Below, piece by piece: positions 19,834 through 46,495 of a stretch of DNA of 47,097 nt. A model generated the notes under the pieces. The model was not told the origin of the DNA. It did no database searches and worked only from the letters and a program-made list of their open reading frames with translations. Numbering within the stretch: the first letter of the stretch is position 1; every line of letters starts with the position of its first letter. Origin of the DNA: Bacteroidaceae bacterium. Its GTDB lineage: Bacteria; Bacteroidota; Bacteroidia; Bacteroidales; Bacteroidaceae. The position numbers and the translations under genes are program-made. Where the stretch lies: contig JAKSLJ010000028.1 of the NCBI GenBank assembly GCA_024401275.1, positions 1 through 47,097 on the forward strand. Reading direction: 5' to 3'.

Positions 19834-20568
19834 ATGAAGGACAAGTCAAGTATCGCATTGCTTAATGCGCACGAGATTGGAGGTGGCGACGTCCCTCCCT
19901 GCGTTGGAGCTAAATCCAGCGCCCTCCCCGAAGTTCAAAAGCCATTATTGGCAGAGAACTCAGATACAGGGGTGTCCATCAACAATGCGCATCGCCAAAC
20001 CCCACCCCCTTCATCAACAGCCCCTCAGAAGCATTGGTATGCCATGCGTACTACCTATGGTCGTGAGCAGAAAGCTTACGACTTTATTGTTTCTAATGGT
20101 GGAACAGCTTTCTTGCCACTTATCAAGCAAGAAAAGGAGGTCAATGGCAAGAAAACCATAGTCGAGGTAAGTCGCATTCCGAACATATTCTTTGTGTATG
20201 GCACAAGGGACGAGGTGCAGTCCTTCGCCTTCGACAATGTGCATCTCCCATATCTTCGGTTCTACTATACGTCTCACCATGAAGGAGTAAAACTGATAAA
20301 GGAACCACTCATCGTTCCCGACCGTCAGATGCGAAGCCTCCAGATACTTTGTCAGGCAGAGGCAGAGGATATACGGTTTGTTCCGGACAAAATGGTCAAG
20401 AAGTTTAGGGAGGGAGATACGGTTCTGATAACCCAAGGCGAGTTCAAGGGCATTGAAGGAAAGGTTGCGCGCTGGCATGGGCAGCAGCGTGTAGCAATTA
20501 TTATCGAAGGACTATGTGTTATGGCAACTGCCTATGTTCCTTCTGCATATCTGGAAAAGAAAGAATAG
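19834..20568 (+). CDS. UpxY-family NusG-like transcription antiterminator
   Basis: This 244-residue protein has an NGN-like domain (about 68-175: HWYAMRTTYGREQKAYDFI, PLIKQEKEV, RIPNIFFVYGT) and a C-terminal KOW segment (FREGDTVLITQGEFKGIEGK). This matches UpxY-type NusG paralogues, which join elongating RNA polymerase and prevent early termination of long operons, classically capsule loci. Here no capsule gene follows; a 34-base gap leads into RyR, FHA, CHAT and TIR genes. Oddity: a Pro/Ser-rich, apparently disordered extension of about 66 residues precedes the NGN domain. The start at 19834 is the first ATG after a -7 element; a longer frame would run into the divergent promoter. Confidence 0.85.
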   Translation: MKDKSSIALLNAHEIGGGDVPPCVGAKSSALPEVQKPLLAENSDTGVSINNAHRQTPPPSSTAPQKHWYAMRTTYGREQKAYDFIVSNGGTAFLPLIKQEKEVNGKKTIVEVSRIPNIFFVYGTRDEVQSFAFDNVHLPYLRFYYTSHHEGVKLIKEPLIVPDRQMRSLQILCQAEAEDIRFVPDKMVKKFREGDTVLITQGEFKGIEGKVARWHGQQRVAIIIEGLCVMATAYVPSAYLEKKE

Positions 20569-20602
20569 GGCGATATGTTTCCCCCTATAATTAAAAGTCA
20601 AT

Positions 20603-22876
20603 ATGAACAATCCGTTTTTACATAGAGCACGAAGACAATGGTATCTCTTTGTTATTATAGTTTTGCTTTCTGCGGTTATAGCAGGAAGCGTGTGGGGCTT
20701 ATGTGCCATTCATAACGATGAGTCACTTTGTGGATTCACTCTGGCGCTTCAGTGTCTCATCCCATTGCTAAGCATCGTATTAGCCGGAGTTTTTGTTTCA
20801 CTTCCCGGAAAAATAGTGAGAAGTAAGGCAATACTTGTCTTGATGTTTGTGGTATTGCTATGTTTGGGCATTAGTGTTTATGCTAATATAGAACCAAATG
20901 AGCCGCAAAGCCTAATCGAAAGAATTCTCTTTCCATTCGTCAGCACGTTGGCATCGTTCTTCCCTTCGAGAGGCGACTATTCGCTTACGGATGCAAATGG
21001 AAGTGAGATCTACCAGCATCCGGGATTATATCTCCTTTTCCATGCCCTCTGCTATTTCTATGTGGCGTGGTTGGGATTCTCCGTCTTCGGAAGGAAAGTT
21101 CTCAATCGTGTAGCCTCGTTCTTTATGCCTTGGAGAAACAAAAACATTATCTGGGGGTATAGTGAAGGAACGTTGGAACTGGCAAAGGACATGATAGCAA
21201 ATACGGAGAAAGACGAGCCAATCTTCATTCTAGACGACGATATCGAGTTTGACTCGGAGAATGAGAGTCGCATCTTCGACATCCTAAGCAACGAGAATAT
21301 ACTGGCATTCAACAGCCATTATGAGAACCTGTCAAAAACTTCTTTGGACTTCAATGCCTATAGATATTACTTTATCACGGAGAACCAAGACTTCAACGTA
21401 AAATACGCCTTGCTGATTCTCAATCAGTTGTATTCCCAGAAAGATAGGCTCTCGGACAAGAGACATATCTTTGTCAGAACCGAACAGGAGGGAGTAGATG
21501 TATTCTTCCAAGAGAAACTAAACGATGGATTGGCGGATTTTGTTGAAGTGCACATCTTTAGCCAGTCGGATATTACAGCAAGACAATTCGTGGCAGAGCA
21601 TCCTATACTTGCCCTAACGGATAGGACAAACCCCGTAACCGGCGAAAAGTGGTTGACCATCAATCACGAAACGCTCCATGTAGATGGAGAGATAAACATA
21701 CTGCTTTTAGGACTTGGATGGACAGGATACGAATTGCTGAAGAAACTTGTATCGGACGGGCAGTTCGTCGGCGACTACAAGACCAATATCGTAGTTATAG
21801 ACAATGACTATAAGCAACACCACGGACGCTATCAATACATAGTTCAGGAAGCCGCGCGTTTCGGCGTGAATATTTGCATCAACCCATTGGTATGGATAGA
21901 CGATAGGCATAAGATATGCCATCAATGGTTGAAGGGCGAGGAGTGTTCTAGAAAAGAAGGACTCGAAGAGAAGCGTGTTCATCAGGCAAACAGCCATCTG
22001 TTCTATGAGTGGCTCGGCTTTGCTCCTGAAGATGATAATGTGGTGAATATACTCCGTTTCAACAGAATAATTGTTGCTCTTGGTTCTGACGAGCTGAATA
22101 TCAATACAGCCCTTCAGATGACCAATTTCCGTAACCATTACTTGGGCGCAAAGGAAACCATCGACCCGACTCTGATGCCAGAACCAATCTTTGCACACGT
22201 CAGAGATAAGGACGGCTATTCATATTATGAAGACTGCAAAGGCAAAATGGAACAGCCAATCCATATCTTCGGAGGACTCAAAAGTATTTACAATGCCAAG
22301 ACTTTGGTAGAGGAGATGATGGACATAATCGCCAAACTCGTTAACTACGTATATTCTACGTCTGGTGAACTGACGGAAGAACAGCTGATAGCTGCTTTGC
22401 AAAATGATAGTGCAGAGGAGGCGTGGGCAAAATGTTCCATCTTCGACCAGGATTCAAGCCGTGCCGTAGCAATGAATATAGACAACATGGTGAGAATTGC
22501 TGGTGATATCGAAAAGTTGGAGGAAATGATAAAATCCCCTGAATATGCAGACATTCTCTCAGAAATGGAACACAAGCGCTGGAATGCGTTCCATTATATG
22601 CGTGGAATAGGGGCATGGAAAATAGAGGAAGTACAGGAAGCACGCAATCGGGACGGAGAGATAAATGCTGATGGTAAGCTGTTCTTTAACAGAACATTAG
22701 TGCGTCATATCTGCCTCGTAGATTATAAAGATCTTGATGCTGCCACTGATAGAGTACATGCTTTAGGCAGTAAAAAGAAGGACTTTAAAACTGCTGACAG
22801 GCGAATCATCCGTCATTTCCCGAAATTCTATCAGATAAAGAAATCTAAAGGTGAGGACTATAAAAACAATGAATAA
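20603..22876 (+). CDS. Membrane protein with two Rossmann (TrkA-N-like) domains and RyR domain
   Basis: This 757-residue protein has four predicted membrane helices (about 13-36, 45-67, 75-95, 141-161) and then a cytosolic region. A first NAD-binding-like Rossmann fold starts near 181 (NIIWGYSEGTLELAKDMI, FILDDD). A second has the classic GLGWTGYE at about 370-378. A C-terminal RyR domain (about 650-745) has MEHKRWNAFHYMRG. The layout recalls ion channels gated by cytosolic RCK/TrkA-N domains. RyR domains of this type are known in bacterial conflict gene sets. Basic residues at the N-terminus place both ends inside. It overlaps the next gene by 8 bases. Pore function is an inference; no selectivity filter is recognised. 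Confidence 0.8.
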   Translation: MNNPFLHRARRQWYLFVIIVLLSAVIAGSVWGLCAIHNDESLCGFTLALQCLIPLLSIVLAGVFVSLPGKIVRSKAILVLMFVVLLCLGISVYANIEPNEPQSLIERILFPFVSTLASFFPSRGDYSLTDANGSEIYQHPGLYLLFHALCYFYVAWLGFSVFGRKVLNRVASFFMPWRNKNIIWGYSEGTLELAKDMIANTEKDEPIFILDDDIEFDSENESRIFDILSNENILAFNSHYENLSKTSLDFNAYRYYFITENQDFNVKYALLILNQLYSQKDRLSDKRHIFVRTEQEGVDVFFQEKLNDGLADFVEVHIFSQSDITARQFVAEHPILALTDRTNPVTGEKWLTINHETLHVDGEINILLLGLGWTGYELLKKLVSDGQFVGDYKTNIVVIDNDYKQHHGRYQYIVQEAARFGVNICINPLVWIDDRHKICHQWLKGEECSRKEGLEEKRVHQANSHLFYEWLGFAPEDDNVVNILRFNRIIVALGSDELNINTALQMTNFRNHYLGAKETIDPTLMPEPIFAHVRDKDGYSYYEDCKGKMEQPIHIFGGLKSIYNAKTLVEEMMDIIAKLVNYVYSTSGELTEEQLIAALQNDSAEEAWAKCSIFDQDSSRAVAMNIDNMVRIAGDIEKLEEMIKSPEYADILSEMEHKRWNAFHYMRGIGAWKIEEVQEARNRDGEINADGKLFFNRTLVRHICLVDYKDLDAATDRVHALGSKKKDFKTADRRIIRHFPKFYQIKKSKGEDYKNNE

Positions 22877-24392
22877 GTCAAGAAACGTCTTAATTATTGG
22901 TGAGCATCCAATAAAAGACAGTATAAAGAAACAGTTTTGCCAACAGAGGTGTGAGGTCACAGAAGTGCTAAAGCCTACTGAGAGTGAGTTGCGCGGCTTG
23001 TGGCACGAGATAGTCGTGCTGTCGTCTGCTGATAATGACGCCGATGCAATAAAGACAGTAGAAACACTTGCGGAGGCTATTTCGGGTGCATCGCAGCTTC
23101 GCCCTACGGTTCATCTGTTGCTACAGCGACAAGAAACTCTCCGACTGCTTAATACTCGCGATCACAACGATGAGTGGCATCGCTGTTTCGAACTCAATGC
23201 GTTTACCATTGAGGATTTGTGGGCAAAGAACATGCTCTGTCTGAACCAGATAGACAGCCGCTTCCCGGGATTGGATTACAAGCCAATAACCTTAGAGAGC
23301 AACCGTGTTGTTCACCTCGTAGTGTTTGGACTTTCCTACCTTACCACATCACTGGCAGAGCATGCAGCACTTGTAGCCCATTATCCAAACTATACCCGCA
23401 ATCATTCGCTTCGCACGCGAATCACCATCATCGATAGTGATATGAGCGAGTGGAGCCGGAAGTTTGTCAGCATGCACAAGCCGCTGATGGATAACTCGTA
23501 TTACCGATACATAGACACGAAGAAGCAGCAATGCGACCTTCACAAACCGATGTATGAGGGACAGCGAGAGGACTATGTTGATGTGGAATGGGAGTTTGCC
23601 GGCGGCAGCATTCACGACATTGTTGTTCAGGACAAGCTGCAAGGTTGGGCTGACGATGAGAATCAGGTGCTGTCCATCGCTCTTTGCCACGACGATGATT
23701 CAAGGAATCTTGCAGAAGCAACACTTATTGCGGACATGCTTTGCAACCAGGAAATCCCTGTGTATGTAAAGCAGAGTACAAGTGTGATGCAGAACATAAT
23801 ATCGCAGTCGCCTCGTATGAGAAATGTCATTATGATAGGCATGGAGGATAGCGGCTATGATATCAACCTCCCTCTGCTCAGAATGGCTAAAAGAGTGAAC
23901 AGCGTTTACGAATATTGCTACAATAACAATATTGCATCGCAGACCGAAGGATGCATTACCGCACCATCTTACATAGACGATAAAGAAGCTGATGCCTATT
24001 GGCTGAATGTCAGGAAGGCCATCAAGAGATATTCCAATATATGCAATGCTATGACACTTGCAACAAAGATGCGTTCGCTTGGCCATTCGGCAGAAGAGAC
24101 AGGCACGTTCTATGCCATAACAAAGCAGGAAATAGACATTATAGCAGAGGTGGAGCACAATCGTTGGAGCGTAGAGGAACTGCTACTCGGTTTCCGTCCT
24201 TGTACGGATGAAGAGCAGGCGGACATAGAGACTGACATCAGCAAGAAGAAAGCAGAATACAAGAACCGTCTGGTGCATTACGACCTGCGTGCATACAACG
24301 ACCTGCGTGCAGACGATACCGGCAAGAACGTAAACACCTACGATATCTGTATTTCGGCAAGTATTCCGCTCATAGCATATAAGACCCTCTAA
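22869..24392 (+). CDS. Soluble Rossmann-like protein with C-terminal RyR domain
   Basis: This 507-residue cytosolic protein starts in ATGAATAA, overlapping the previous stop; a GTG at 22851 in the same frame is an alternative start. An N-terminal Rossmann-like strand (NVLIIGEHPIKDSIKKQF) and a second one near 140-190 (RVVHLVVFGLSYLT, RITIIDSD) suggest the same double-nucleotide-fold plan as its neighbour without the membrane part. The RyR domain is at about 423-507 (EVEHNRWSVEELLLGFRP), with an internal YDLRAYNDLRAD duplication. Tight overlap implies translational coupling and a joint complex. Ligands are unknown. Confidence 0.78.
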   Translation: MNKSRNVLIIGEHPIKDSIKKQFCQQRCEVTEVLKPTESELRGLWHEIVVLSSADNDADAIKTVETLAEAISGASQLRPTVHLLLQRQETLRLLNTRDHNDEWHRCFELNAFTIEDLWAKNMLCLNQIDSRFPGLDYKPITLESNRVVHLVVFGLSYLTTSLAEHAALVAHYPNYTRNHSLRTRITIIDSDMSEWSRKFVSMHKPLMDNSYYRYIDTKKQQCDLHKPMYEGQREDYVDVEWEFAGGSIHDIVVQDKLQGWADDENQVLSIALCHDDDSRNLAEATLIADMLCNQEIPVYVKQSTSVMQNIISQSPRMRNVIMIGMEDSGYDINLPLLRMAKRVNSVYEYCYNNNIASQTEGCITAPSYIDDKEADAYWLNVRKAIKRYSNICNAMTLATKMRSLGHSAEETGTFYAITKQEIDIIAEVEHNRWSVEELLLGFRPCTDEEQADIETDISKKKAEYKNRLVHYDLRAYNDLRADDTGKNVNTYDICISASIPLIAYKTL

Positions 24393-24418: not shown

Positions 24419-24428
24419 AGAGCAAAGC

Positions 24429-25775
24429 ATGAAATATTATAGTATAACAATAAAGAACAACTACGGCAACCTACATGCGGGAGAATGCTTCTGCAATGCC
24501 ATCAAGCCGTTGACCATCGGACAACTCAATTCCTCCAACATCGTTCTGCCATGTGCCGACGATCTACTGCCACAGAAATTCTGCGTCATAAAAGCAGCTG
24601 ATTCGGGGGCTTGGATTCTGGTGAAGCAGACAGATTTCTACTCGATAGAAGTGAATGGCAATGCCGTGGATTGTGTTTGCCAGCTATCGGATGGAGATGT
24701 TATCTCACTGAATGGAGTGGAGTTTCTGTTCAATACGCATGAGGATGATAATTACACGGAAGCACAAGGAATAATACGAAGCACGTCCCGAAAAGACAAA
24801 AAGCAGATTCTGCTGTGGTGTTGTTCGCTCCTCGCCGTGCTTGCAGTGAGTATAGGCTATCCGCTGTTGAGAGAAAACAGGAACGCATTTACCAGTAGCG
24901 ACGACAACGCTATTCGTGCTTCACTTTGTAAAATAGAGGTGGAAGAAGTGATCCTTCAGATGCATACTCCAGAAGACAATGACGGCGAATATCGTGATGT
25001 AGACTCATATATGTTGGACAGCAAATCGGTAGGCACATGCTTCCTTACTACTGACAGCCTGATAGTCACCGCTCGCCATTGCGTCGAACCATGGCTGGAT
25101 TTCAATAATTGGGAGGACAATACCAAACTGACGGATCTTCCGCAAGACGTCTATTGGGCAGTGATAGCCGAACAAAGCCAGTTGGAGCAGGCAGATACGT
25201 TGTATCGTGTAGTTTCCAAGTGTCAGATTATCGCAAATGACAGCGTTTGCATCGACACCTTTACCTCAGACCAATTCTCGTATAATCGTTCGCGCGATAT
25301 CCTCACACACATGGGAGCGGCGCGCCTGCCTTGGCGTGTTATCTATCCTTTGTACCACAAGAAGGATGTCGAACTGGGAGATTTTGCTTTCGTCAAGACT
25401 AATCACAAGGGAGAAATGACACTTGCCACAAAGGAGTACATCTCTGATATTAAGGACGCGGAAGAAGCCGACGTAAGAGTGTATGGATTTCCAAAGAAGA
25501 TTCACGGCAACCGTTGTGAATATCAGGAGGCAGCACTTGTGTTGAGAGAAAGTGATATCAGTAAGGAATGCATTCAGCTGAAAGTAAATGGCACGACTGG
25601 CTATAGTGGTGCGCCTGTCATAGAAAAGAGAGACGGAAGGATGCTTGTGGTTGGTGTGTTCTCAAAGATAGACGACTTTGACGACAGTAAGAATACGTTC
25701 TATGCCGTACCGGCAAATGAAATTTCACAATATAACGCAAAAGAGGCAAATGAGCAAAAGCAATATCGCAGATAA
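24429..25775 (+). CDS. FHA-like domain, TM helix, periplasmic trypsin-like serine protease
   Basis: This 448-residue protein has a cytosolic FHA-like beta-sandwich (about 1-105: PLTIGQLNSSNIVLP, VEVNG-like IEVNGNAV, LSDGDVISLNGVEF). A basic stretch (RKDKKQ) and one TM helix (about 127-147) follow. A trypsin-fold protease (about 160-435) carries a complete triad: His217 in VTARHC, Asp318 in LGDFAFV, Ser393 in TTGYSGAPVI. FHA domains usually bind phosphothreonine; proteases of this fold cleave peptides. Topology places the sensor head inside and the protease outside the inner membrane. It overlaps the next gene by 26 bases. The FHA call is by pattern (GxxxxSN-like GQLNSSN) and less sure than the protease. 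Confidence 0.82.
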   Translation: MKYYSITIKNNYGNLHAGECFCNAIKPLTIGQLNSSNIVLPCADDLLPQKFCVIKAADSGAWILVKQTDFYSIEVNGNAVDCVCQLSDGDVISLNGVEFLFNTHEDDNYTEAQGIIRSTSRKDKKQILLWCCSLLAVLAVSIGYPLLRENRNAFTSSDDNAIRASLCKIEVEEVILQMHTPEDNDGEYRDVDSYMLDSKSVGTCFLTTDSLIVTARHCVEPWLDFNNWEDNTKLTDLPQDVYWAVIAEQSQLEQADTLYRVVSKCQIIANDSVCIDTFTSDQFSYNRSRDILTHMGAARLPWRVIYPLYHKKDVELGDFAFVKTNHKGEMTLATKEYISDIKDAEEADVRVYGFPKKIHGNRCEYQEAALVLRESDISKECIQLKVNGTTGYSGAPVIEKRDGRMLVVGVFSKIDDFDDSKNTFYAVPANEISQYNAKEANEQKQYRR

Positions 25776-26904
25776 TCTATCCGCAAAGAATATCGTTGGC
25801 TGCACAACGGAAATGACATTATGGCGCTTCGTAAAAGACATAGCAAGCCAATTGTCAAGTCTGCACGAAACGAAGAAGGCACACGGCAAAGTAGCCCTAA
25901 CAAGCATAGCCGTCTCCGGGAAAGAATTCTTCCTTGAGAAGGGCAACGGCGAAGGTTCACCTTCGGCAGATATCTGGCATTTGGGCGCCTGTATTTATGA
26001 ATTAGTCACGGGTAATGCTCCTTTTGGCGGAAGGGGTAGGGTAGGCCAGAGCGAGTTGTCTCCGCTCCCTGCGTTCAGTGAGTCAAAGGCATCAAAGCCG
26101 CTCAGCGCATTGATGCAGCGCTGTCTTGAGTACAGGGAAGACGAACGGTGTACGGCAAGGGAAATCGTAAAAATAGCGGAGAAAGAACTCGCGGTGGTGG
26201 AACAATACGCGTCCAACAGCGAGAACCTGAAGTATAAGAAACCGCAGAACAGACAAGTCAGGATGAAGACCTACAGCTTTTGGCCAGAGGTAATGGCAGG
26301 TATAGCCATAATGTTTTTGCTGGCTATTCCGCAAAGCGTTTCTGCTCAGTATAATGCGGAAATGGAAAAACTAATCCGCCTTACTACTACGATGCGCGAC
26401 CAGAAAAAGCGCACGCAAGTATTGAACGAACTGAAAGCCGACACGAAGTGGACTCTCATGGATGAGCTGACGGTTGACGCTAACGAATGTACCTACAAGG
26501 ATAAGGTGAACATGTTTGGCATAAACGACATTGCTGCGGAGATAGCCCAGCGCGAGAAGGGCGTTGTCAATGTGGGCGGACGATTCAAGCATAGTGCTGA
26601 CGGCAAGCATAACTATTCGTTCATAGAACTGACAGCAAAGGCTGGAGCTGCCGTCATGTACACGGTAAAAGCGCATGTGGGCACGCAGCAGGTTGCCGTT
26701 GTACCTTTCGATAAGAACCAGGCGTATGTGGCTGTCTTTATAACGGAGAACGGCAAGGAAATAAATGCCCATACGAAGAAGGAAGGCATTTCTTATTTTA
26801 CTGTCCCTATTGGCAGCAAAGCAGCAAGCTATTCCTTCGAAATAACCAACAATGGCACGAAGAATGCTGCGTTCGCTGTGATAACATATAATCCGATGAA
26901 GTAG
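25750..26904 (+). CDS. Degenerate kinase C-lobe, TM helix, periplasmic beta-sandwich domain
   Basis: This 384-residue protein begins inside the protease gene (ATG 25750). Residues about 20-150 look like the C-lobe of a Ser/Thr kinase: LHETKKAHGKVALTSI where HRDLKPxN is expected, then SADIWHLGACIYELVTGNAPF and an LMQRCLEYREDERCTA ending. The N-lobe, the catalytic Asp and DFG are absent, so it is a pseudokinase fragment. After basic residues (KYKKPQNRQVRMK) comes a TM helix (about 178-198), then a periplasmic part (about 200-384). Its end (YTVKAHVGTQQVAVVPF, SYSFEITNNGTKNAAFAVI) resembles the secreted protein at 39409. It may be a docking partner for the FHA-protease. Confidence 0.72.
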   Translation: MSKSNIADNLSAKNIVGCTTEMTLWRFVKDIASQLSSLHETKKAHGKVALTSIAVSGKEFFLEKGNGEGSPSADIWHLGACIYELVTGNAPFGGRGRVGQSELSPLPAFSESKASKPLSALMQRCLEYREDERCTAREIVKIAEKELAVVEQYASNSENLKYKKPQNRQVRMKTYSFWPEVMAGIAIMFLLAIPQSVSAQYNAEMEKLIRLTTTMRDQKKRTQVLNELKADTKWTLMDELTVDANECTYKDKVNMFGINDIAAEIAQREKGVVNVGGRFKHSADGKHNYSFIELTAKAGAAVMYTVKAHVGTQQVAVVPFDKNQAYVAVFITENGKEINAHTKKEGISYFTVPIGSKAASYSFEITNNGTKNAAFAVITYNPMK

Positions 26905-26917
26905 AAAACTATTCCTT

Positions 26918-26939: not shown

Positions 26940-26950
26940 CCCATAATCAG

Positions 26951-38000: not shown

Positions 38001-38129
38001 TATCATCATCTCATGGCAGGCAGCACTCCAAACGAATCACTCCGCAAGGCGCAGCAACACCTCCGCAAGCATGGCTATGACGACCCACAATACTGGGCAT
38101 CCTTCATCATCCTGGACGGAAACAAATAG
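35016..38129 (+). CDS. Exported TPR-CHAT caspase-like protein 2
   Basis: This 1037-residue protein has a signal peptide (MKKISLIFFLAILPVFALA-Q). An extended TPR array (about 25-540) includes EYALCLHNLARTYVAKEDF and ALGTIAGNYYLKQDYQQ. A coiled segment (about 600-660) precedes a C-terminal CHAT domain (about 740-1037). The dyad is His890 in LHIATHG and Cys949 in VLSACETALG, followed by GVFGLQRGFKNAGVHTLLMS and the ending DPQYWASFIILDG. It is the largest of the four CHATs and starts the second half of the island after a 980-base gap. TPRs probably bind a partner that controls the protease. Confidence 0.9.
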   Translation: MKKISLIFFLAILPVFALAQNAARLLELGDSVREAEKWDEAIALYAKAESTLKSEGKENSAEYALCLHNLARTYVAKEDFKKAMAYSEQAMALRKQLLGEVSEDYINSLNTYAIAVCNERDFKKAEDLQRDVMKLCDQLPSQHPRYGVYAENMGRYLYINGKKKEAAEIWEKALPCVEKFGENYEFMLKYLGYIYEDSGDKKNMKRILALMEEHNQHELTKECNDPECMVERADYYAATGDNAMAKENYLKALQMPMTDKQKVKVYESYAMFNGGAREFALAADYYLMAANAKKAVEGETEDYIQLVYKTAMYSYLGKLFEQSLGYYRQVIAFYEKHDSNAARKNIAQCHKGMGNSLSALQRYAEARDEHKLVVAYYEKYDKESEEYPNAITRVATAEKFNKEYDISIEHYKQAIAIYTERGMSEKAHDTQNSLNLCYAYAGRQMETNDEVENAAREAQKAKLDASIKEEIENLDIYKTYLGKMQYASALGTIAGNYYLKQDYQQSVSYFKQYMEAVRDAIRDEFRMQSEAERMTTWADERSNIQEIMEMLTTLPVGNEALMPDLAALAYDCQLLSKGILLNSSIEFEKIVNASNDAKLKATYEETKRINERITELRQTANTDEELDNIVKLQQQSQQLQLELNRSCAEIADFTDYIGYSWRDVQSKLQKDDVAIEFAAIKVGVFDNSNYMAAIVLTKDMTQPVAVPICNFAQVKAMQKDSLIYLTPVVGNLVWGNLAQYIKDKKRIYFSADGAFNQIGIEYLQWEGKPLSELKDMVRLSSTKELCYNVAKAKVDHAAIFGDINYTEEGNYSADAKRSVATMRGSAQTADDGDIQFGNLDGTRKEMDEISKTLKSSGVKNVQTFADTKASEEAFLALSDSKLNLLHIATHGAYLVKDKVTDAESMQQSILAFAGANLGNEGTQTDGYVTAADVSKMNLRNCNLAVLSACETALGKMGDDGVFGLQRGFKNAGVHTLLMSLRQVDDKATTELMTQFYHHLMAGSTPNESLRKAQQHLRKHGYDDPQYWASFIILDGNK

Positions 38130-38153: not shown

Positions 38154-38165
38154 AAAGTACGATTT

Positions 38166-39395
38166 ATGGCAAACAAATATGATATATTTATAAGTTATAG
38201 GCGAGATGATGGTCAGCAGTATGCTCGCCTTATAGAGAAAGAACTGAAATCAAGAGGATACAATGTATTCCTTGATTATGAGGAACTCGACAAGGGATTG
38301 TTCGACGAGAAGATTGTTGGGGCAATTGCACACTCCAAGATATTTGTGATGGTACTTACCCCACTATACCTATCTCGTTGCAATAAAGCAGAAGACTGGG
38401 TAAGAAAGGAGATTCAATTGGCTATAGTCCAGAAAAAGGAATTCGTTCCTGTGGTACCTGATGGACTGTTTAAGGCTATTCCTGAAGACCAAGAAAAGGG
38501 ATTGCCAGAAGATATAAGGGATTATGTTGAGCATATCCAGCGTACAGAGGTATATATGGGACAGATGATGAAGCCGTCCTTTGACTATCTGGTTAAGCAT
38601 AGAATCCGTCCGTTCGTGCGTCCAAAATTGATGTTCAAGACATGGATGGCTATTGTTCTTGGGATGGTTCTTGTGGCAATTGTTGGTTCCTATCTGGCGA
38701 TTGATTATATGGGCAATAAGAACGAAGAACATCGAAAGACGCTTATGCATCAACTTGAAGACCGTTATGCTTCTTGGGGACTTAATTTCGGCGAAAGTGA
38801 AGATGTCACAATAGGTCAGCTAAATGCCATTGCAAGCATTCTTGATGGTATGCATCCAGTAAAGGGTGATTCTCTTCGTATGGGGGCATTCGAGGTGACC
38901 AATGCTCAATGGTATGACATCCAGAAAGAAGATTACAATCAGGCAGATTCGCTCTTGCCAAAGACAAATGTAAATCTTGGCGATTGCATGGACTTCTGCA
39001 TGTTGCTAAGCGACCTGACTTCGTTGGAGTTCGATTTACCTCTTGAAGATGAATGGCTGTTTGCTGCCAAAGGTGGAGTGTCTGCACAAAACACAATCTA
39101 TTCGGGAAGCAACGCTGCAGATAGCGTGGCATGGTACAAGGATAATGCCAAAGGACGTGTTCAGAAATGTGATGGTGAGAAGTACCCTAATGCCCTCGGA
39201 CTTTACAATATGAGTGGTAACGTGAGTGAATGGTGCAATTCGCCATTTGATGCATCAGGCAACATTGCTTTGAAGGTCGTAAAAGGCGGCAACTACCTTT
39301 CAACCGAACAGGAAGTTGCCATAGAGCATAGAGTGTCAATGGAAGAGAATGTCCATAACGAGAAAGTTGGACTCAGATTAGTCATCAGAAAATAA
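38166..39395 (+). CDS. TIR domain, TM helix, periplasmic FGE-fold domain (2)
   Basis: This 409-residue protein has a TIR domain (about 4-125: YDIFISYRRDDG, YNVFLDYEELDKG, VMVLTPLYLSRC, DWVRKEIQLAI with candidate catalytic Glu82). Basic residues (RIRPFVRPKLMFK) and a TM helix (about 158-178) follow. The periplasmic FGE-sulfatase domain (about 225-409) is better preserved than in TIR 1: GAFEVTNAQWYDI, FDLPLEDEWLFAA, LGLYNMSGNVSEWC, VKGGNY and VGLRLVIRK. The GFRC-like end reads GLRLV, so no catalytic Cys is seen there and the domain is more likely a binding module of the C-type-lectin-like fold. It lies between CHAT2 and a secreted protein. Confidence 0.88.
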   Translation: MANKYDIFISYRRDDGQQYARLIEKELKSRGYNVFLDYEELDKGLFDEKIVGAIAHSKIFVMVLTPLYLSRCNKAEDWVRKEIQLAIVQKKEFVPVVPDGLFKAIPEDQEKGLPEDIRDYVEHIQRTEVYMGQMMKPSFDYLVKHRIRPFVRPKLMFKTWMAIVLGMVLVAIVGSYLAIDYMGNKNEEHRKTLMHQLEDRYASWGLNFGESEDVTIGQLNAIASILDGMHPVKGDSLRMGAFEVTNAQWYDIQKEDYNQADSLLPKTNVNLGDCMDFCMLLSDLTSLEFDLPLEDEWLFAAKGGVSAQNTIYSGSNAADSVAWYKDNAKGRVQKCDGEKYPNALGLYNMSGNVSEWCNSPFDASGNIALKVVKGGNYLSTEQEVAIEHRVSMEENVHNEKVGLRLVIRK

Positions 39396-39408
39396 GTAAC
39401 AGCAAAAT

Positions 39409-40059
39409 ATGAAGAAGATTCTTTTTACCCTGTTCGTGTCCGTGTGTTCAATGTGTGTTTCTGCACAGGAAGTAACTGATAGTATGAGCATAGACGATGT
39501 GATGGATGCATGCATCAGTATGCAGGAAGCGTTGGAGAACAATGACGCCGCAGCATTGAAAAAGGCGGCAGAGGCTCTTCGCGAAACCCAAACGACAGCA
39601 TTCACTTCATTGCGATGCAAGGACGATACTATCTCTTCTCTCAATGGGCACTTCGTCTTTAACGATGTTTTCGTTGACAGCCTTGTCGTTGGAGCCAATC
39701 CCTATGATAATGCAGACGATATCAATCGCTCAACTATCCATCGTGGTCAGATGACGAATGGATCCAAGCTCATTAAGACCTGTATGGTCAAGGCAGGACA
39801 AAGTACAAAATATACCTTTGCATCAAGAGGTCGCCAGGAACTTGGCATTGTTGCCGAACCAGGAGGACTTATCACCACTCGCATCCATGTTACCAATACA
39901 TCTGGTCTCAACGAGTGGCACAACGACACCAAGAATCCTAACGGAACCCGCCGCTATAAAACTGCATTCGACCTGCCATCCGATAAGCGCAATACAGTTG
40001 AACTGGAAGTTATAAACAAAAGCGGCAAGGACATTAGTTTCGTGGTGATAAGTAACTAA
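39409..40059 (+). CDS. Secreted protein sharing the periplasmic domain of the pseudokinase
   Basis: This 216-residue protein has a signal peptide (MKKILFTLFVSVCSMCVSA-Q), a short helical region (about 25-65) and a beta-rich domain (about 80-216). The latter contains KYTFASRGRQELGIVAEP, RIHVTNTSG, an HNDTK stretch and VELEVINKSGKDISFVVISN. The order of these blocks matches the C-terminus of the protein at 25750, indicating homology. No enzymatic motif is evident; a beta-sandwich binding module is likely. It begins 13 bases after TIR-FGE 2, so translation is probably coupled. Confidence 0.7.
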   Translation: MKKILFTLFVSVCSMCVSAQEVTDSMSIDDVMDACISMQEALENNDAAALKKAAEALRETQTTAFTSLRCKDDTISSLNGHFVFNDVFVDSLVVGANPYDNADDINRSTIHRGQMTNGSKLIKTCMVKAGQSTKYTFASRGRQELGIVAEPGGLITTRIHVTNTSGLNEWHNDTKNPNGTRRYKTAFDLPSDKRNTVELEVINKSGKDISFVVISN

Positions 40060-40143: not shown

Positions 40144-42759
40144 ATGCGAAAACTTTTGCTCATAATCATTGCGGTTTGCATGTGCCAGGTGGCGTGTGCA
40201 CAATCTGGTTTGCTGAACTTTGCGAATATGTATGCTCAGCAGGGTGACATCTCCAAGGCTATGGAGTATGCCGACAAAGCCCTTGATTTTTGCAAGCAGA
40301 ATTATGGGGAGGAGTCTAATGAGTACGCGAAAGTCCTTCTGACGAAGGCGGAATACTTGCACTATAGCGGGAAGACGCAAGAGTCTATTGCCGTTGCCAA
40401 ACAGGCTTCTGCGATATTCAAGGGAAATGTAGGAAGCAATTCCGCCGAATATGCCTCTGCTCTCAATAATCTGGCAGAATACTATAAAAGCCTGGGAAAC
40501 TATCAGGAGGCCCTCAGTGTTGGTGCTGAGGCCTTGGGTATATGCAAGAAAGTGTTCGGGGAGACGCACGAGGTCTATGCCATGTCTTTAAGCAACCTTG
40601 CAAGCTACCATAACGAACTTGGCAACTATCAAGAAGCCATAAAACTGGGGAAGGAGGCTGTGGATATCTTGCGAACCACGGTGGGCAGGAATCATGCCAA
40701 CTATGCTCAGTCGCTCAATAATCTAGCCCTTTTTTATCGCAGTGTACGCAATTATAAGGAGTCTGAAAGATTGGGAACGGAGGCAGTGAGTATTGCAAAA
40801 GCAACTCTGGGAGAGCGATCTCCATACTATGCCATGGCACTTGGTAACCTTGCTGGCTATAAGGCGTGTCTTGGGGATTTTCAGGAAGCCATCAGATTGG
40901 TTACTGATGCTTCGGATATTCAGTTGAGGATGTATGGCGAATTGAACACGGACTATGCTCGTTTTCTGAACAATCTTGCCAGTTATTATTTCCAAGCCAA
41001 CAAATGTCATGAGGCTGTCAGGATAGCTGAGCGTGTACTGAAAATCCGCAAACTGCTGCTTGGCGCTGAGCATCCTTCCTATGCCTTGACTCTTTCCAAT
41101 ATTGTCCTCTTCTATCACTATGATGGCAATCTGCCTGAAAGGGACAAGCGCGGTAAGGAATGCTTTGGACTTGGAAAGAAGCTTATAACGGAAAACTTTG
41201 CGACGATGACGCCGTCCGAGATGGATAACTTTCTGAACTTGAACGCTCATTTGATCCGAGAGCAGCATAGCCCAACTGTAGCCTACGATGCTTTGCTCTT
41301 GAACAAGGGTATGCGACTGACTGCCGAAATGGGTATCAACGAACTTATAAGGGAGAGCGGCGATAAGGAAGCATTGAAGATGTTTGAACGTATCAGGATG
41401 AATACCGTAGTAATGAACAAGCTGCTGGAGAGGCCTATAGCAGAACGCAATCTGGATGTTGATTCGCTGAGCGATGAGATTGAGAAGGAGCGAAAACTGC
41501 TTGCCGTGCAGTCAAAGGATTTCGGAGACTTCACCCGCTTCTTCTGTACTTCATGGCAGGATGTACGGGATAACCTGAAGAGTAGCGAGGCGGCGATAGA
41601 GTTCGGAACATTGCCAAAGGGCGAAATCTATGTTTCAGACCATTGCACCCGCGCCCTCCTCCTTAAACGCGATTCCGAAGAGCCGATAGACATTTATCTT
41701 GAGCTTGACTCCACGAAGGATTTCAAGACGAACATTTTGGCAAACTGGCCTACAATCCAGCAGCATCTGAAAGGCATAAAGACTGTATATTTCTCTCCTT
41801 CAGGCGAACTTTACAGTAATCCGATAGAGAACTACATAAGCGATGGCAGAGAATATGTCCGTGTGTCTTCCACGAGAACCATAGTGACAGATCGACTTGC
41901 CGCTGCCTCTGTAACCAAAGGCAAACCGATGAAACTCTATGGTGGTCTGGTTTACGATATGACGCTTGACGACCTTGCAAAAGCGAACATGCCATATAAA
42001 CTGACGGATAATAAGCCTTCGGAGTTGTATGCAAAGCGAAGCAGTGGTCGTGAGGTGGTCGGACAGATTGGTTTCGATTATCTTAGAGGTACATTGGATG
42101 AAGTGAATAGCATAGAAGGCATAGCACAATCGCATAAGAGAAAGTGCGAAGTGCTTTCGGGAGAACTCGGTACAGAGGAGTCTCTCCGTACAATAGACGG
42201 CAAGAAATACGGCATTCTTCATTTTGCTACCCATGGCTTCTATTGGACGGAGAAAGAAGCGGAAGACCTTGCAGAATGGAACCGACTTTCGTTTCTTATG
42301 ACAGATAACAACTCCCCAAAATATGTGGAGGACAAGTCGATGACTCGTTCGGGCTTGATATTCAGCGGAGCAAACATCGCTTTAGGCGGCGAGGAACTGC
42401 CAGAGGGGACGGAAGACGGCATAGCTACGGCACAGGAGATTTCTCACCTTGACCTCCGTGGTTGCGATCTCGTATCGCTTTCCGCTTGCCAAACAGGACT
42501 CGGTGAGGTCTCTGGCGAGGGGGTGTTCGGTCTCCAACGCGGCTTCAAGAAAGCGGGTGTGAACAGCATCCTCATGTCATTATGGGAAGTGGACGACCGT
42601 GCCACGCAGATGCTGATGACAGAGTTCTACAAGCATTATCTCAGCGGCAAGTCGAAGCGAGTATCGCTACGCAAAGCACAGGAGTATGTGAAATCACAAC
42701 CTGGCTACGACGACCCTAAATACTGGGCATCATTCATCCTGCTGGACGGATTGGATTGA
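40144..42759 (+). CDS. Exported TPR-CHAT caspase-like protein 3 (kinesin-light-chain-type TPRs)
   Basis: This 871-residue protein has a signal peptide (MRKLLLIIIAVCMCQVACA-Q). Regular 42-residue TPR_12-type repeats (about 20-340) contain YASALNNLAEYYKSLGNYQE, YAMSLSNLASYHNELGNYQE and YAQSLNNLALFYRSVRNYKE. The C-terminal CHAT domain (about 560-871) has His697 in LHFATHG and Cys782 in SLSACQTGLG, then GVFGLQRGFKKAGVNSILMS and DPKYWASFILLDG. The repeat regularity differs from the other three, suggesting a distinct partner or recent repeat expansion. Confidence 0.92.
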   Translation: MRKLLLIIIAVCMCQVACAQSGLLNFANMYAQQGDISKAMEYADKALDFCKQNYGEESNEYAKVLLTKAEYLHYSGKTQESIAVAKQASAIFKGNVGSNSAEYASALNNLAEYYKSLGNYQEALSVGAEALGICKKVFGETHEVYAMSLSNLASYHNELGNYQEAIKLGKEAVDILRTTVGRNHANYAQSLNNLALFYRSVRNYKESERLGTEAVSIAKATLGERSPYYAMALGNLAGYKACLGDFQEAIRLVTDASDIQLRMYGELNTDYARFLNNLASYYFQANKCHEAVRIAERVLKIRKLLLGAEHPSYALTLSNIVLFYHYDGNLPERDKRGKECFGLGKKLITENFATMTPSEMDNFLNLNAHLIREQHSPTVAYDALLLNKGMRLTAEMGINELIRESGDKEALKMFERIRMNTVVMNKLLERPIAERNLDVDSLSDEIEKERKLLAVQSKDFGDFTRFFCTSWQDVRDNLKSSEAAIEFGTLPKGEIYVSDHCTRALLLKRDSEEPIDIYLELDSTKDFKTNILANWPTIQQHLKGIKTVYFSPSGELYSNPIENYISDGREYVRVSSTRTIVTDRLAAASVTKGKPMKLYGGLVYDMTLDDLAKANMPYKLTDNKPSELYAKRSSGREVVGQIGFDYLRGTLDEVNSIEGIAQSHKRKCEVLSGELGTEESLRTIDGKKYGILHFATHGFYWTEKEAEDLAEWNRLSFLMTDNNSPKYVEDKSMTRSGLIFSGANIALGGEELPEGTEDGIATAQEISHLDLRGCDLVSLSACQTGLGEVSGEGVFGLQRGFKKAGVNSILMSLWEVDDRATQMLMTEFYKHYLSGKSKRVSLRKAQEYVKSQPGYDDPKYWASFILLDGLD

Positions 42760-42788
42760 TATAACCTGAACAAACTATTTCCAAAATA

Positions 42789-43949
42789 ATGAAAACAAAC
42801 AGAATAAACGTGGCGATATGTGCAATGCTTTTGCTGTTATTGCCTGCTTTTGCAAACCTCTCTGTGCTCAATGCTTCTACGCAGAGTAAGCAGGATGGTG
42901 GTTCACTGACTGTGGCTTTTGACAATCTGTCAAAGTTGGCAACTTTTGAGAAAGTAGAGCCTAAGGAATATGAACATCTGTTTCCCGAAGAATTGGGAAC
43001 AGCTCAAGGTGTCATTGCTCCTAATTCGCATTTGCGTGACGAAATTCTGAAAATCTTAAAGGAAATACCATACACATATTTATATAGTGAAGCGAGGACT
43101 CAGAATGATAAGATATCCCGTTGTTACATTGAGCAACTCCCTTCTGGCAAATGTCAGATGATGTATGTGTTGGTTGGAAATGGAAGCAATGATGTGGTTG
43201 CCGCCCTATTCACTGATGCTCCGATTAAGAAGTATGAAGATTTCGGCGACACCTTTAAGCAAGCTACCTTTGAGGAGGTTGAGGAGGCTGTAGTCAAAAC
43301 AAATGCGGAATGTCCGATCGTTGTCGGCTCTGGTATGGAGATGTCTTCCATGGCTATCAACGATAGATTCTGGACGATAAGAATGAAGCTTAACACATTA
43401 GGCAAAGGCTTGTCTGGAATTAACAAGGAACAAGGGAAGACTACGCTGAAAGGTGTTGGGAAATATCTGATATCACAAGTCTTTAACTTGAACATCGGGT
43501 TCAGAATGGTGTTCACCGACGAAACGGGTGAGTCAACGACATTGATTCTTGAGCACCAGGATTTGGCAGAGATTCTGAATGACACTGATATTACTCCAGA
43601 CGACGTTTTACAGACATATATTGAGAATAGCAAGAAAGCGTGTCCATTGGAGATAGCGAAGGGAATGACTATGACGGACATATCGTTGGTAGAGGATGTT
43701 CTCTGCCAAGAGATAACTGTTGATGAGGATGCCTATTCCATAGACTTGCTGAATGCTAACAGGGCTTCCATAAAACAAAATATGGCTGCACTCATTTCTT
43801 CTGGTCAGGATCAATCTCTTTCCCTTATTGCAGAATGGCTTGTGAAGGCGAACAAAGGACTTGGATATATGTACATCGGAAATAAGTCGGAAAAAACAGC
43901 TTTGATTGTCTTCTCTTGTGAAGAATTGAAAGAACTATTGTCTCTCTAA
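42789..43949 (+). CDS. Secreted protein with internal duplication, unknown function
   Basis: This 386-residue protein has a signal peptide (about 1-22 or up to NAS at 30). Two related C-terminal segments are seen. One has CPIVVGSGMEMSSMAINDRF and ends TTLILEHQDLAEIL (about 175-265); the other has CPLEIAKGMTMTDISLVEDV and ends TALIVFSCEELKELL (about 285-385). An earlier segment (about 110-150: GKCQMMYVLVGN) may be a third, weaker copy. No catalytic motif is recognised. It sits between CHAT3 and CHAT4, 29 bases after one and 14 before the other, so it may be a substrate, inhibitor or partner of them. Confidence 0.68.
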   Translation: MKTNRINVAICAMLLLLLPAFANLSVLNASTQSKQDGGSLTVAFDNLSKLATFEKVEPKEYEHLFPEELGTAQGVIAPNSHLRDEILKILKEIPYTYLYSEARTQNDKISRCYIEQLPSGKCQMMYVLVGNGSNDVVAALFTDAPIKKYEDFGDTFKQATFEEVEEAVVKTNAECPIVVGSGMEMSSMAINDRFWTIRMKLNTLGKGLSGINKEQGKTTLKGVGKYLISQVFNLNIGFRMVFTDETGESTTLILEHQDLAEILNDTDITPDDVLQTYIENSKKACPLEIAKGMTMTDISLVEDVLCQEITVDEDAYSIDLLNANRASIKQNMAALISSGQDQSLSLIAEWLVKANKGLGYMYIGNKSEKTALIVFSCEELKELLSL

Positions 43950-43963
43950 CATTTTGCCCAAAT

Positions 43964-46495
43964 ATGTTTTGTCTTCGGAATAGGCTTAGAGCTGGTGTCG
44001 TATTATTTCTTGTAACTATCTCCCAGTTTGCGTTCTCTCAGGAAATCTCCCAAAAGAGAGCCGACGCGATTAGTACCGCTGAGAGAAAAATGGAGGCTGC
44101 AAAGAAGAATATGACGCTGGATCCCGAAAACTATCTGGCAAGTCTTCTTGATTTGGCAGATACATATTATGCTACGCAAGAGTATGCCTCTGCCAGAACT
44201 GCGTATTGGGAATATTATCTGCAAGCTACAAGGAAAGGGTTCTACGATGATGATAATCCGAGAGACTTGGACGTGTTGATGAGACATTCAATGTCGAGTT
44301 ATTATCTGGGTGATTATGATGAATGTATAGAAATGTTCCGTGGGTATTTGGGGCAGTTGGAAAGCAAGGGGACTTTACATGAAAGGGAGGTGATTGCTTT
44401 ATGCTGGATGTGCGACAGCTATATCAAAGCAAAAGACTACACATCTGCCAAATTCGTTGTTTTGTCAATTAAAGAGAGAATAAAGACTAATGAGATTAAG
44501 GACGCGCATGTCCTTTCATTGGTAAAATACGTGGAGGCTGATCTTTTGGTTCAAACGGATCCAGCAAATGCTATTGATTTGATATTGTCTTTATCCGATG
44601 AAGGGATAGACGATTCGATTGACGGAATCCAATTGCTAGTTGCTCAGTATTGCTTAATGGCAAATTGCACTATGAGGCTAAGCCAATTTGATTTCTCGAT
44701 TGAAATCTATCAGAAAGTAATAGGCATAATGGAGGAGTATGATTTGACGGGAAGTTATGATTACTACGATGCGAACTATAACCTCATGTTGTGCTTTGCC
44801 TTGAATGATAAAGATCTCTCGGCAATTTCATCAAAACTGAATCGGATTATTGTGAAAAACATTCATGATAATTTCCCGCGCATGACTGATAAGCAGAGAT
44901 TCTCATATTGGGAACAGTTCGATAGATGGTTCTTCTTCTATCTGCCAAGATTAGCAAGCAATAACCCTACAGCCGCTGTAGGCATGGTTTCTCGCAATGC
45001 CTATACCGGTCTCCTTGTTGCAAAAGGGCTGCTCCTGCGAAGTGCAATCTCTATTCAGGATTTTGTGGCAAGATCACAGAATGAAGAATTGCAGGAAATC
45101 CAGGAACAGATAGAATATCTTCAGAAGAAAATACAGAAGTGGCAGAATTCCAATGCGGAAGAAGCCCACCAGGAAATCTTTAATAATAAAACCAATTTGG
45201 ACAGATTGCAGCAGCGTATATTGTCTGGCATCCGGCAATATGATTATATGCAGGATATCTTTATTGATGTTGATTCTGTCCAGAAAAACCTTTTGAACGA
45301 TGATGTCGCTATTGAATTTGTCGCTTTGGATAGAGAAATAAGCAATAGCGACTCTGGCAAGCAGACCATTCAGGAGTATTATGCGTTTGTCATAAAGAAG
45401 AACTATGCACATCCTCATGTGATAAAGGTCTGCGATAGTAGGGATTTTCCCGCTGGTAATAGTGATGTCCAGTCTTTATACAGCGTTGTCTGGAAACCTC
45501 TTGAAAGAGAACTGAAAGGGGTAAAACGTGTTTTCTTCTCTCCTGACGCCTCTCTCTATAACTTGCCTATTGAATATGCTGTTACCCCAAAAGGTTCTGA
45601 TTTGTCAAATAGTTTTACTATTTATCGCCTCTCTTCAACAAGAGAATTGGCAATTGAACGCCCCTCAAAGCAGAATAACAGAATGTCCTTGTTCGGCAAT
45701 ATTGATTATTATAATTCGGTCGGGAAATCTGCAAAGCCGAGTAGGTATGTTGCGGAGATGACAGCAAAGGAAAAGGGTAATGGGACATCCGCATCGCGTG
45801 GAGCTGCTGACATCGAAACAAACACATTCCCTGACTTGGAGTTCTCGGCAGACGAGATTTATAGGATGGCAGAAATTGCTACGTCCAACAACTATAATGT
45901 ACAGATATTTGAGAAGGCTAATGCTTCTAAAGAGATTTTCAAGAAGTTGTCCAATTCCTCTCCTGGGGTTATAGTCCTTAGTACACATGGCTACATGCTT
46001 TCGGATAAAGATTCTACAAGTCTGATACCTGTTGATAATGCTGAGGCGGAAGGTGTTCTGAAGGAGGATATCTCTTTGAGCAAATCTGGACTTGTGCTTT
46101 CTGGAGCGAATCGTCTTTTGCTTCATGAGCCATTGGACGGTACTGAAAATGGCTTCATTTCTGCAAGAGAGATTTCAAGCATGAACTTGGAACAAACAAA
46201 TCTGGTTATACTCTCTGCTTGTGAATCTGCACTTGGAGATATCTCCTCTGAAGGTGTCTTCGGGCTTCAGCGCGGTTTCAAGAAAGCTGGTGCCAACTCC
46301 ATTCTCATGTCTCTTTGGAAGGTTGATGATGCTGCCACCTGCAAACTCATGACGGAGTTCTACTCCAACTGGATCTCCAAGAAGATGACGAAGCATGATG
46401 CCCTGGAGGCGGCAAAGAATACTATACGCAAAACAAGAGGATGGGAAGACCCTAAATATTGGGCTGCGTTCATTCTTTTGGATGGATTGGATTGA
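43964..46495 (+). CDS. Exported TPR-CHAT caspase-like protein 4
   Basis: This 843-residue protein has a signal peptide (MFCLRNRLRAGVVLFLVTIS-QFAFS-Q, about 25), divergent TPR-like helices (about 35-330), and a coiled-coil (about 365-420, EELQEIQEQIEYLQKKIQK). The C-terminal CHAT domain (about 520-843) has His675 in VLSTHG and Cys753 in ILSACESALG, then GVFGLQRGFKKAGANSILMS and DPKYWAAFILLDG. Codon use is more AT-rich than in CHAT1-3. It is the last gene of the island; a hairpin follows. Confidence 0.9.
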   Translation: MFCLRNRLRAGVVLFLVTISQFAFSQEISQKRADAISTAERKMEAAKKNMTLDPENYLASLLDLADTYYATQEYASARTAYWEYYLQATRKGFYDDDNPRDLDVLMRHSMSSYYLGDYDECIEMFRGYLGQLESKGTLHEREVIALCWMCDSYIKAKDYTSAKFVVLSIKERIKTNEIKDAHVLSLVKYVEADLLVQTDPANAIDLILSLSDEGIDDSIDGIQLLVAQYCLMANCTMRLSQFDFSIEIYQKVIGIMEEYDLTGSYDYYDANYNLMLCFALNDKDLSAISSKLNRIIVKNIHDNFPRMTDKQRFSYWEQFDRWFFFYLPRLASNNPTAAVGMVSRNAYTGLLVAKGLLLRSAISIQDFVARSQNEELQEIQEQIEYLQKKIQKWQNSNAEEAHQEIFNNKTNLDRLQQRILSGIRQYDYMQDIFIDVDSVQKNLLNDDVAIEFVALDREISNSDSGKQTIQEYYAFVIKKNYAHPHVIKVCDSRDFPAGNSDVQSLYSVVWKPLERELKGVKRVFFSPDASLYNLPIEYAVTPKGSDLSNSFTIYRLSSTRELAIERPSKQNNRMSLFGNIDYYNSVGKSAKPSRYVAEMTAKEKGNGTSASRGAADIETNTFPDLEFSADEIYRMAEIATSNNYNVQIFEKANASKEIFKKLSNSSPGVIVLSTHGYMLSDKDSTSLIPVDNAEAEGVLKEDISLSKSGLVLSGANRLLLHEPLDGTENGFISAREISSMNLEQTNLVILSACESALGDISSEGVFGLQRGFKKAGANSILMSLWKVDDAATCKLMTEFYSNWISKKMTKHDALEAAKNTIRKTRGWEDPKYWAAFILLDGLD

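Follow-up and report, generated by a model that had tools for sequence, protein, structure and literature searches.

Among the bacterial systems built around TIR domains, type IV Thoeris uses a caspase-like effector, i.e., a caspase-fold protease as its output, and we know of no nucleotide-triggered execution step that takes place outside the inner membrane. As far as the available parts of the respective sources go, phage RyR proteins bind 2'/3'cADPR (cADPR, cyclic ADP-ribose), one of them cleaving these molecules as a glycosidase and others binding the signal as sponges (PMC13232231), and Ca2+, ATP/ADP or NAD are common inputs of RCK gating rings (PMC6697748, PMC3510474, PMC6987127). The locus considered here lies at positions 19,834 to 46,495 of a 47,097-nucleotide stretch (“the window”) that is the entire contig JAKSLJ010000028.1 (C21) of a 3.2-Mb Bacteroidaceae bacterium genome in 71 contigs (GCA_024401275.1); its genes are labelled, in order, NusG, A, B, C, D, E, F, G, H, I, J, K, L, M, N and O. 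Five of them, B-C-D-E-F, form a conserved core, which we read, with a probability of about 0.5, as a nucleotide-gated trans-envelope protease relay, where the product of a TIR protein would act on the RCK ring B, the ring on the membrane-spanning protease C, and C on exported CHAT proteases.

The case for a joint system begins with conservation. An alignment of five B proteins was searched against one genome per species (84,980 species), giving 56 loci, 54 of them from Bacteroidales and two (L115, L119) placed only to Bacteroidia, and the five genes recur around B in these loci in a largely fixed order. Judging by family profiles applied to all open frames, C is found in 51/56 loci, directly after B or fused to it (L164), the kinase part of D in 49/56, its periplasmic part (Dp) likewise in 49/56, a CHAT/E match in 48/56 and F in 35/56; with one set of open reading frames (ORFs) per locus, C comes immediately after B in 46/56. 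Contig ends cut several loci, such as L114 and L150, B stands without C in five (L109, L136, L155, L157, L163), and E and F precede B in three (L112, L115, L156). A separate search of 149 genomes, the source genome included, matched B in 13, and in the 10 neighbourhoods read among the 12 other matching genomes (G072 and G092 being left aside) the arrangement B-C-D-E(-F) was present in four (G022, G028, G039, G044); among 395 genomes drawn evenly from the phylum, only the source genome matched. The accessory genes vary between loci: full-length homologues of genes K and L occur as neighbours close to the core in five (L113, L118, L126, L151, L159), the adjoining homologues of gene L, labelled by a Dp profile of which L itself is one of six seeds, showing 41–56% identity, while gene J has homologues in L137 (53% identity) and L159 (44–51%), and L122 and L153 have a NusG-like gene upstream of the core, which in L122 immediately precedes an A-type gene, the arrangement of the window.

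Action of B on C, and of Dp with E, is best supported by two natural fusions. In L164, from Candidatus Minthenecus (Paludibacteraceae), B, one transmembrane (TM) segment and the protease domain share a single open frame lacking FHA and kinase parts, followed by Dp and CHAT genes, and in L119 Dp continues into the beginning of E, which is then cut by the contig end. Directly after the three-gene minimal system of L164 (B-protease fusion, Dp, CHAT) there is a caspase with a signal-like start (L164:6216-7133; Peptidase_C14, 1.1e-18). An exported protein of about 220 amino acids (aa) with a PPC-like C-terminus also recurs just upstream of B (L137:9260-9925, L147:9005-9670 and others), its Pfam PPC match in L137 (0.0074) being below the cut-off.

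The structural model of B (predicted local distance difference test, pLDDT, 92) finds its best matches in the gating rings of the DMI1/CASTOR channels, which have a tandem RCK fold, and B is, by this prediction, a soluble CASTOR/DMI1-type tandem RCK gating ring without a pore. Under our own hydropathy and charge rules, used for all signal peptides and positive-inside TM segments in place of a trained predictor, the window's B has no TM segment to form an ion-conducting pore; 6/46 B homologues have a single region with one or two weakly hydrophobic stretches, which were read as Rossmann strands/helices. The RyR-like domain at the C-terminus of B was reached through relatives, as PF02026 has no Pfam match in the window's own proteins (curated cut-offs being applied to the domain calls of the 17 island ORFs) and none in this genome at E 0.001. 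The C-termini of A-type proteins (a strict set of 14, with B-like rows left out) match RyR with a probability of 97.5 (E 5.2e-12) and the C-termini of B with a probability of 96.5 (E 8.3e-10), both E-values of these profile-profile comparisons being pairwise. The four RyR ligand residues H, W, H and D, as defined in the available part of PMC13232231 and brought into correspondence with the phage proteins by motif, occur in 47, 47, 47 and 46 of the 47 rows of the B set (one row being an A-type protein), and are H430, W433, H470 and D492 in the window's B; three of them are present in 26–27 of the 27 rows of the A set. Gene A itself, judged by its hydrophobic segments, appears to encode a gated-channel-like protein, and has one relative among the 149 genomes (E 8e-5).

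On the membrane side, Trypsin_2 in C is barely above the cut-off (28.4 vs 27.6 bits), and the C-family profile, when compared with solved structures, comes closest to Do/HtrA proteases (best E 2.3e-9). The catalytic triad (H217, D318, S393) is kept in 45/45 rows, all of which also have a single TM between the FHA-like N-terminus and the protease, the N side being the more positive in 37. No Pfam FHA match was obtained in the window's C; 5/11 C proteins show a weak one (best E 0.0034), the family profile weakly matches FHA domains in the PDB, and the arginine after the first glycine, which we take to be the phosphothreonine contact, is replaced by Q/E/D/H/N in 45/45 rows. D behaves similarly: Pkinase is below the cut-off (31.3 vs 31.7 bits), a second kinase model just above (23.5 vs 23.1), and the family profile aligns to kinase C-lobes (e.g., Nek7 133-298), whereas the HxDxKxxN motif is lost in 42/44 D homologues, the window's D included, and kept in two (L114, L119), which indicates that D descends from a kinase. 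At the pseudokinase position these two loci hold kinases with the catalytic Lys, HxD and DFG/DLG (L114:2974-3729, L119:12852-13676), read as intermediates in pseudokinase decay. As both the FHA and the kinase sites are degenerate, phospho-signalling is unlikely in most members. In 17/44 rows D is one protein, a TM always separating its kinase part from Dp, and in 27/44 it is split; 24 of these 27 kinase parts have no hydrophobic segment, and a signal-like start is present in all 26 Dp proteins that stand alone. The junction carries a WPExM motif in 40/44 rows, placed ahead of the TM or, in split forms, where the kinase part ends, and this motif is a possible docking peptide.

The proteases at the far end seem intact and exported. 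Among E homologues, the CHAT dyad consists of H671 in 38/38 and C742 in 37/38 (one gap), and the dyad aligns in all nine CHAT proteins compared; a signal-like start is present in 36/38 E homologues and 27/28 F homologues. The rule behind these calls was positive for E, F, J, L, M, N and O in the window, for none of the controls (0/47 in the B set, 0/46 for C, 0/27 split kinases, 0/36 TIR proteins) and for 135/301 unlabelled neighbour proteins of at least 200 aa. The F model (pLDDT 70) had no confident match in the PDB. C acting on E is suggested by gene order and fusion. CHAT matches occur in 34/100 genomes, the source genome included, which has five, four of them in the window; the fifth, on contig G000:C26 (L007; 489-3179, - strand), is an exported TPR-CHAT beside a 130-aa caspase-like frame with a signal-like start (23-415, - strand), 23 bases from the contig end, the pair being a candidate second exported caspase-fold locus of this genome.

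Three claims of the preliminary description of this DNA, made by eye from sequence and ORF translations, can be judged at this point, and its interpretation is borne out in part. It had placed sensors in the cytosol, single-pass proteins in the membrane and proteases outside, and this topology is borne out by the TM and signal rules, as well as by the split and fused forms of D and the B-C fusion. It had counted the FHA and kinase-like parts among the sensors, and here the degeneracy of both has to be added. Its view of CHAT execution in the periplasm as unusual also needs correcting: in a sample of one well-scoring CHAT gene from each of 20 other genomes, 18 proteins have a signal-like N-terminus (15 within 15 residues of the frame's first start), and an exported CHAT is, by this predicted feature, the usual state in the relatives sampled.

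As for the input, 28 of the 56 loci (1.009 Mb) contain TIR domains, 38 in all or 37.7 per Mb, against 65 TIR_2 matches in 60 genomes (about 189 Mb, a sum of rounded sizes), or 0.34 per Mb; this amounts to an enrichment near the core of about 110-fold, which is rough, as the two counts use different profiles. The source genome's only two TIR_2 matches (E 1e-5) both lie within the island. Of those 60 genomes, 13 have a PF02026 match, and a TIR lies within 4 kb of it in nine (G006, G018, G022, G025, G028, G032, G034, G109, G111, not G015, G092, G097, G110); a RyR-TIR link is drawn from this co-location and from the phage work. The TIR domain of K aligns with that of SARM1, including the Glu of its WVxKE, which we take to be catalytic in SARM1; no solved chain matched the TIR of G at E 0.01. 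Beyond its TM, K carries an FGE domain resembling a Treponema variable protein and sulfatase modifying factor 2, which may serve as an outside sensor. In other loci TIR genes come in different company: upstream of the core in L147 there is a SIR2-TIR protein followed by a large nSTAND1 ATPase (1-1386 and 1373-4795) and a large exported protein, an arrangement that those of L151 and G022 (L090) resemble by eye, and at about 53-77 kb of G025:C1 (L041, L103) a dense group of nine TIR domains lies near RyR genes; by eye, WD40-like repeats accompany some of these domains and an MscS-like channel gene is close by.

Conservation, the folds of B and C, the intact active sites, the degenerate FHA and kinase parts, the predicted topology and the TIR proximity are all read from sequence or models, and a course of events would connect them. 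A TIR protein of the locus (here the SARM1-like K, along with G; elsewhere TIR-TM or SIR2-TIR proteins), once triggered, would make an ADP-ribose-type nucleotide from NAD, and this ligand would bind the RyR domain of B and, in parallel, that of A. The resulting rearrangement of the ring would be passed to the degenerate FHA of C, with the D pseudokinase as a scaffold, and would alter the periplasmic HtrA-like domain of C; this step from B to C is backed by the fusion and by conservation. With signalling thus directed outwards, C might then cleave or release the exported CHAT proteases (E, and here J, M and O), aided by Dp or L and by F, and the freed proteases might attack the envelope of the cell or targets on its surface; the whole would probably serve antiviral or other self-sacrificing defence. 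The narrower idea that a gating ring has swapped its pore for a protease, reading TIR-made cyclic ADP-ribose and letting a membrane-spanning HtrA-like protease fire exported caspase-fold proteases, which would make it a bacterial cADPR-RyR axis ending in trans-envelope proteolysis, alongside the RyR-bearing channel-like A, is held more tentatively, at somewhat less than an even chance.

A number of observations weigh against the relay as a whole or its nucleotide input. TIR domains occur in only 28 of the 56 loci, and just 22/38 of them have WxxxE. PF02026 matches just one of 28 B members (E 0.075), the direct B-RyR profile comparison is weak (probability 4, E 0.0097, 22 columns), and the link therefore runs through the A-type proteins, of which a mere 4/14 scanned (L092, L093, L118, L133) exceed the PF02026 cut-off of 27.4 bits, the window's A being itself divergent and unmatched by BLAST in the 56 loci. 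Where D is split, nothing covalent ties the kinase part to the periplasm. B homologues are found on none of 72,556 plasmid and 50,697 phage records, and no whole system of PADLOC-DB 2.0 (2023) was matched by the 10 of 17 island ORFs scanned, single models being hit by C (RT-Protease_XI 4.2e-11, LmuA 2.1e-8), by G and K (ThsB, SAVED_TIR and other TIR models) and by J and M (a TPR model), with none for A, B, E, I and O.

Some of these points fit a pathway of envelope homeostasis instead, in which B would sense ions or adenine nucleotides (like TrkA, KtrA, GsuK and CASTOR) and tune the HtrA-like and CHAT proteases for quality control of the periplasm, the TIR proteins being mere neighbours. Going by analogy, RCK rings usually sense ions or ATP/ADP/NAD, which speaks for such a role and against the relay; the closest solved relatives of C are indeed Do/HtrA proteases, and half of the loci have no TIR. 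A housekeeping task of this kind, however, sits poorly with a patchy distribution (B in 13/149 genomes, the core in four of the 10 neighbourhoods read), a TIR enrichment of some 100-fold, a near-invariant RyR ligand quartet and the conflict-type accessory genes of at least one locus (the nSTAND ATPase and SIR2-TIR protein of L147), and we regard it as unlikely. The same parts could also work in the opposite direction, as an alarm from the outside in: periplasmic Dp, F, FGE and CHAT would sense phage adsorption or envelope damage, cleavage would signal inward via D and C to B, and the RyR domain would be an enzyme or sponge that ends or tunes the TIR signal, or would open A. The TIR-TM-FGE proteins would, going by their TM, put a CLec-type domain outside, and the phage RyR proteins described in the available part of PMC13232231 include one glycosidase as well as sponges, both of which suit this direction, whereas the intact state of the CHAT and HtrA active sites speaks for an output role over a sensing one; L164, retaining sensor, TM and protease in one chain and dropping FHA and kinase, is compatible with either. 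An inward alarm seems improbable to us. That the island is just a loose gathering of unrelated conflict genes in a variable locus, with no joint pathway, would agree with the locus-to-locus change of accessory genes, the lack of matches for H, I and N and the AT-rich insert, but B-C-D-E keeps its order in most of the 56 loci, B-C and Dp-E fusions exist and short gaps or overlaps join the window genes, which makes this very unlikely.

Within the window, the island is composed of two operon-like runs separated by a non-conserved, AT-rich insert (Table 1). NusG-A-B-C-D-E-F-G are spaced by at most 72 bp, with overlaps at A-B and C-D, and J-K-L-M-N-O by at most 84 bp; the 2.76 kb between G and J have a GC content of 36% (flanks 45–46%) and hold H, I and a gene remnant. 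We take the start codon of NusG to be uncertain, about 60 extra residues standing ahead of the usual N-terminus. H, I, N and the window's own A gave no BLAST match in the 56 loci at E 1e-6, and H and I are probably outside the system. The preliminary description had drawn all this as a single co-directional island of about 27 kb under an UpxY-type leader; all the named genes are indeed on the + strand and their domains are real (by Pfam and profiles), but the UpxY gene stands at the head of the first of two runs, and conservation covers the core and, in a part of the loci, K-L and J, with H, I and N falling outside it. In its domain list, NusG/UpxY, Trypsin_2, four CHAT, two TIR_2 and the FGE of K are above the Pfam cut-offs, RyR and FHA being reached through relatives and profiles instead, and what it had called a Rossmann part is present and can be refined to the tandem RCK ring. 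It had also proposed that the neighbourhood be sought in other Bacteroidales, where the order recurs in dozens of genomes, more than chance would give; the refuting outcome it had named, a gene order confined to this strain, did not occur. By eye, the C-terminal stretch of I (33112-34035) recalls TIR/Rossmann-like domains, with no family above the cut-off, and outside the island an IS200-like Y1 transposase (2829-3614) adjoins a beta-galactosidase gene.

Table 1. Genes and gene remnant of the island, with window positions
Feature	Positions	Strand	Basis
NusG, UpxY-type antiterminator, head of run 1	19834..20568	+	Pfam NusG 8.8e-7, above cut-off; PHROG transcription antiterminator 2.3e-14
A, putative gated-channel-like protein, divergent; 4 hydrophobic segments, TrkA_N-like part, C-terminal RyR-like domain	20603..22876	+	TrkA_N 0.0024 (below cut-off); hydropathy; profile placement with A-type proteins
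B, predicted soluble tandem-RCK gating ring, C-terminal RyR-like domain; core	22869..24392	+	
C, one TM between a degenerate FHA and a periplasmic HtrA/Do-like trypsin-fold protease; core	24429..25775	+	Trypsin_2 3.2e-6
D, pseudokinase (remnant of a kinase C-lobe) followed by a juxtamembrane WPExM motif, a TM and a periplasmic Dp domain; core	25750..26904	+	Family profile
E, exported TPR-CHAT protease (CHAT1); core	26951..29521	+	CHAT 2.8e-33; signal-like start
F, exported, beta-rich, unknown fold; core	29594..31030 (alternative start 29546)	+	Family profile; signal-like start
G, TIR-TM-FGE (CLec-fold)	31051..32259	+	TIR_2 1.7e-13; FGE 0.00035 (below cut-off); one TM, positive N side
H, multi-pass membrane protein	32549..33109	+	No Pfam/PHROG family; none in 56 loci; AT-rich insert
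I, membrane protein, two TM segments	33112..34035	+	No Pfam match above cut-off; none in 56 loci
Remnant of DUF4143-type gene	34432..34707	+	DUF4143 0.0009, last 21/160 positions, below cut-off
J, exported TPR-CHAT protease (CHAT2)	35016..38129	+	CHAT 4.2e-49; signal-like N-terminus
K, SARM1-like TIR-TM-FGE	38166..39395	+	TIR vs SARM1 1.9e-19; FGE 4.1e-23
L, exported paralogue of Dp	39409..40059	+	Homologues; Dp profile; signal-like N-terminus
M, exported TPR-CHAT protease (CHAT3)	40144..42759	+	CHAT 8.1e-49; TPR_10 1.9e-51; signal-like N-terminus
N, exported, unknown family	42789..43949	+	No family above cut-off; signal-like N-terminus
O, exported TPR-CHAT protease (CHAT4)	43964..46495	+	CHAT 1e-54; signal-like by rule, yet no 19-residue hydrophobic segment passes

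Should the relay hold, bacterial TIR signalling would reach proteases beyond the inner membrane by way of a gating ring of the channel type, RyR domains would gain a bacterial, non-phage role in reading ADP-ribose-type signals, and the exported CHAT proteases that are common in the relatives sampled would gain a possible trigger. It would also echo the long-debated cADPR-RyR link of animals in a simple system where it could be tested, direct tests being feasible through the residues that define the system, the fusion of B and C found in nature, and hosts in culture such as Prevotella sp. tf2-5 (L138) and Bacteroides ilei Marseille-P3208 (L139), whose records carry the operon.

When set against known systems, no description of a B-C-D-E-F system was found in the open-licence PMC literature. 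Among the closest are the neighbourhoods of the vWA-MoxR ternary and other conflict systems, where, in the available parts of PMC7159879, PMC8195603 and PMC10907252, trypsin, CHAT, TIR and FGE/CLec domains keep similar company; the term RyR has no occurrence in those parts, and “ryanodine” appears in the references of one only. Unlike the vWA-MoxR systems, the island would execute by export, and no vWA or MoxR domain was found in its Pfam scans. With the phage RyDEP/R12 family of RyR proteins (PF02026; available part of PMC13232231) it shares the ligand residues H, W, H and D and a probable ADPR-type ligand; the phage members are small anti-defence enzymes or sponges, however, whereas the island's RyR forms the C-terminus of a gating ring that a bacterial operon encodes. 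The tandem RCK fold of B is common to CASTOR/POLLUX/DMI1, GsuK and TrkA (available part of PMC6697748), but, unlike CASTOR/POLLUX/DMI1, B is poreless, stands beside (in L164, fused to) a membrane-spanning protease and carries an added RyR-like domain. In a similar manner, SARM1 has the closest solved relative of the TIR domain of K, while K, unlike SARM1, has one TM anchor with FGE beyond it. The likeness to Thoeris consists of a TIR protein, an NAD-derived nucleotide (TIR-made cADPR isomers; available part of PMC13232231) and a downstream effector, and a TIR domain with a putative NADase signature is present (G and K above the TIR_2 cut-off, the Glu of K aligned), although K scores far below the cut-off of the NCBIfam model for Thoeris type III ThcB4 (5.9e-13). 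Pfam scans of the 17 island ORFs gave no SLOG or Macro family at E 0.1, and, as no such effector was found, the island is not filed under Thoeris; its sensor, moreover, is an RCK ring with RyR, and its proteases are exported and linked via a membrane-spanning HtrA-like protein. We accordingly regard the system as a putative variant of TIR-nucleotide-protease signalling rather than a member of Thoeris per se.

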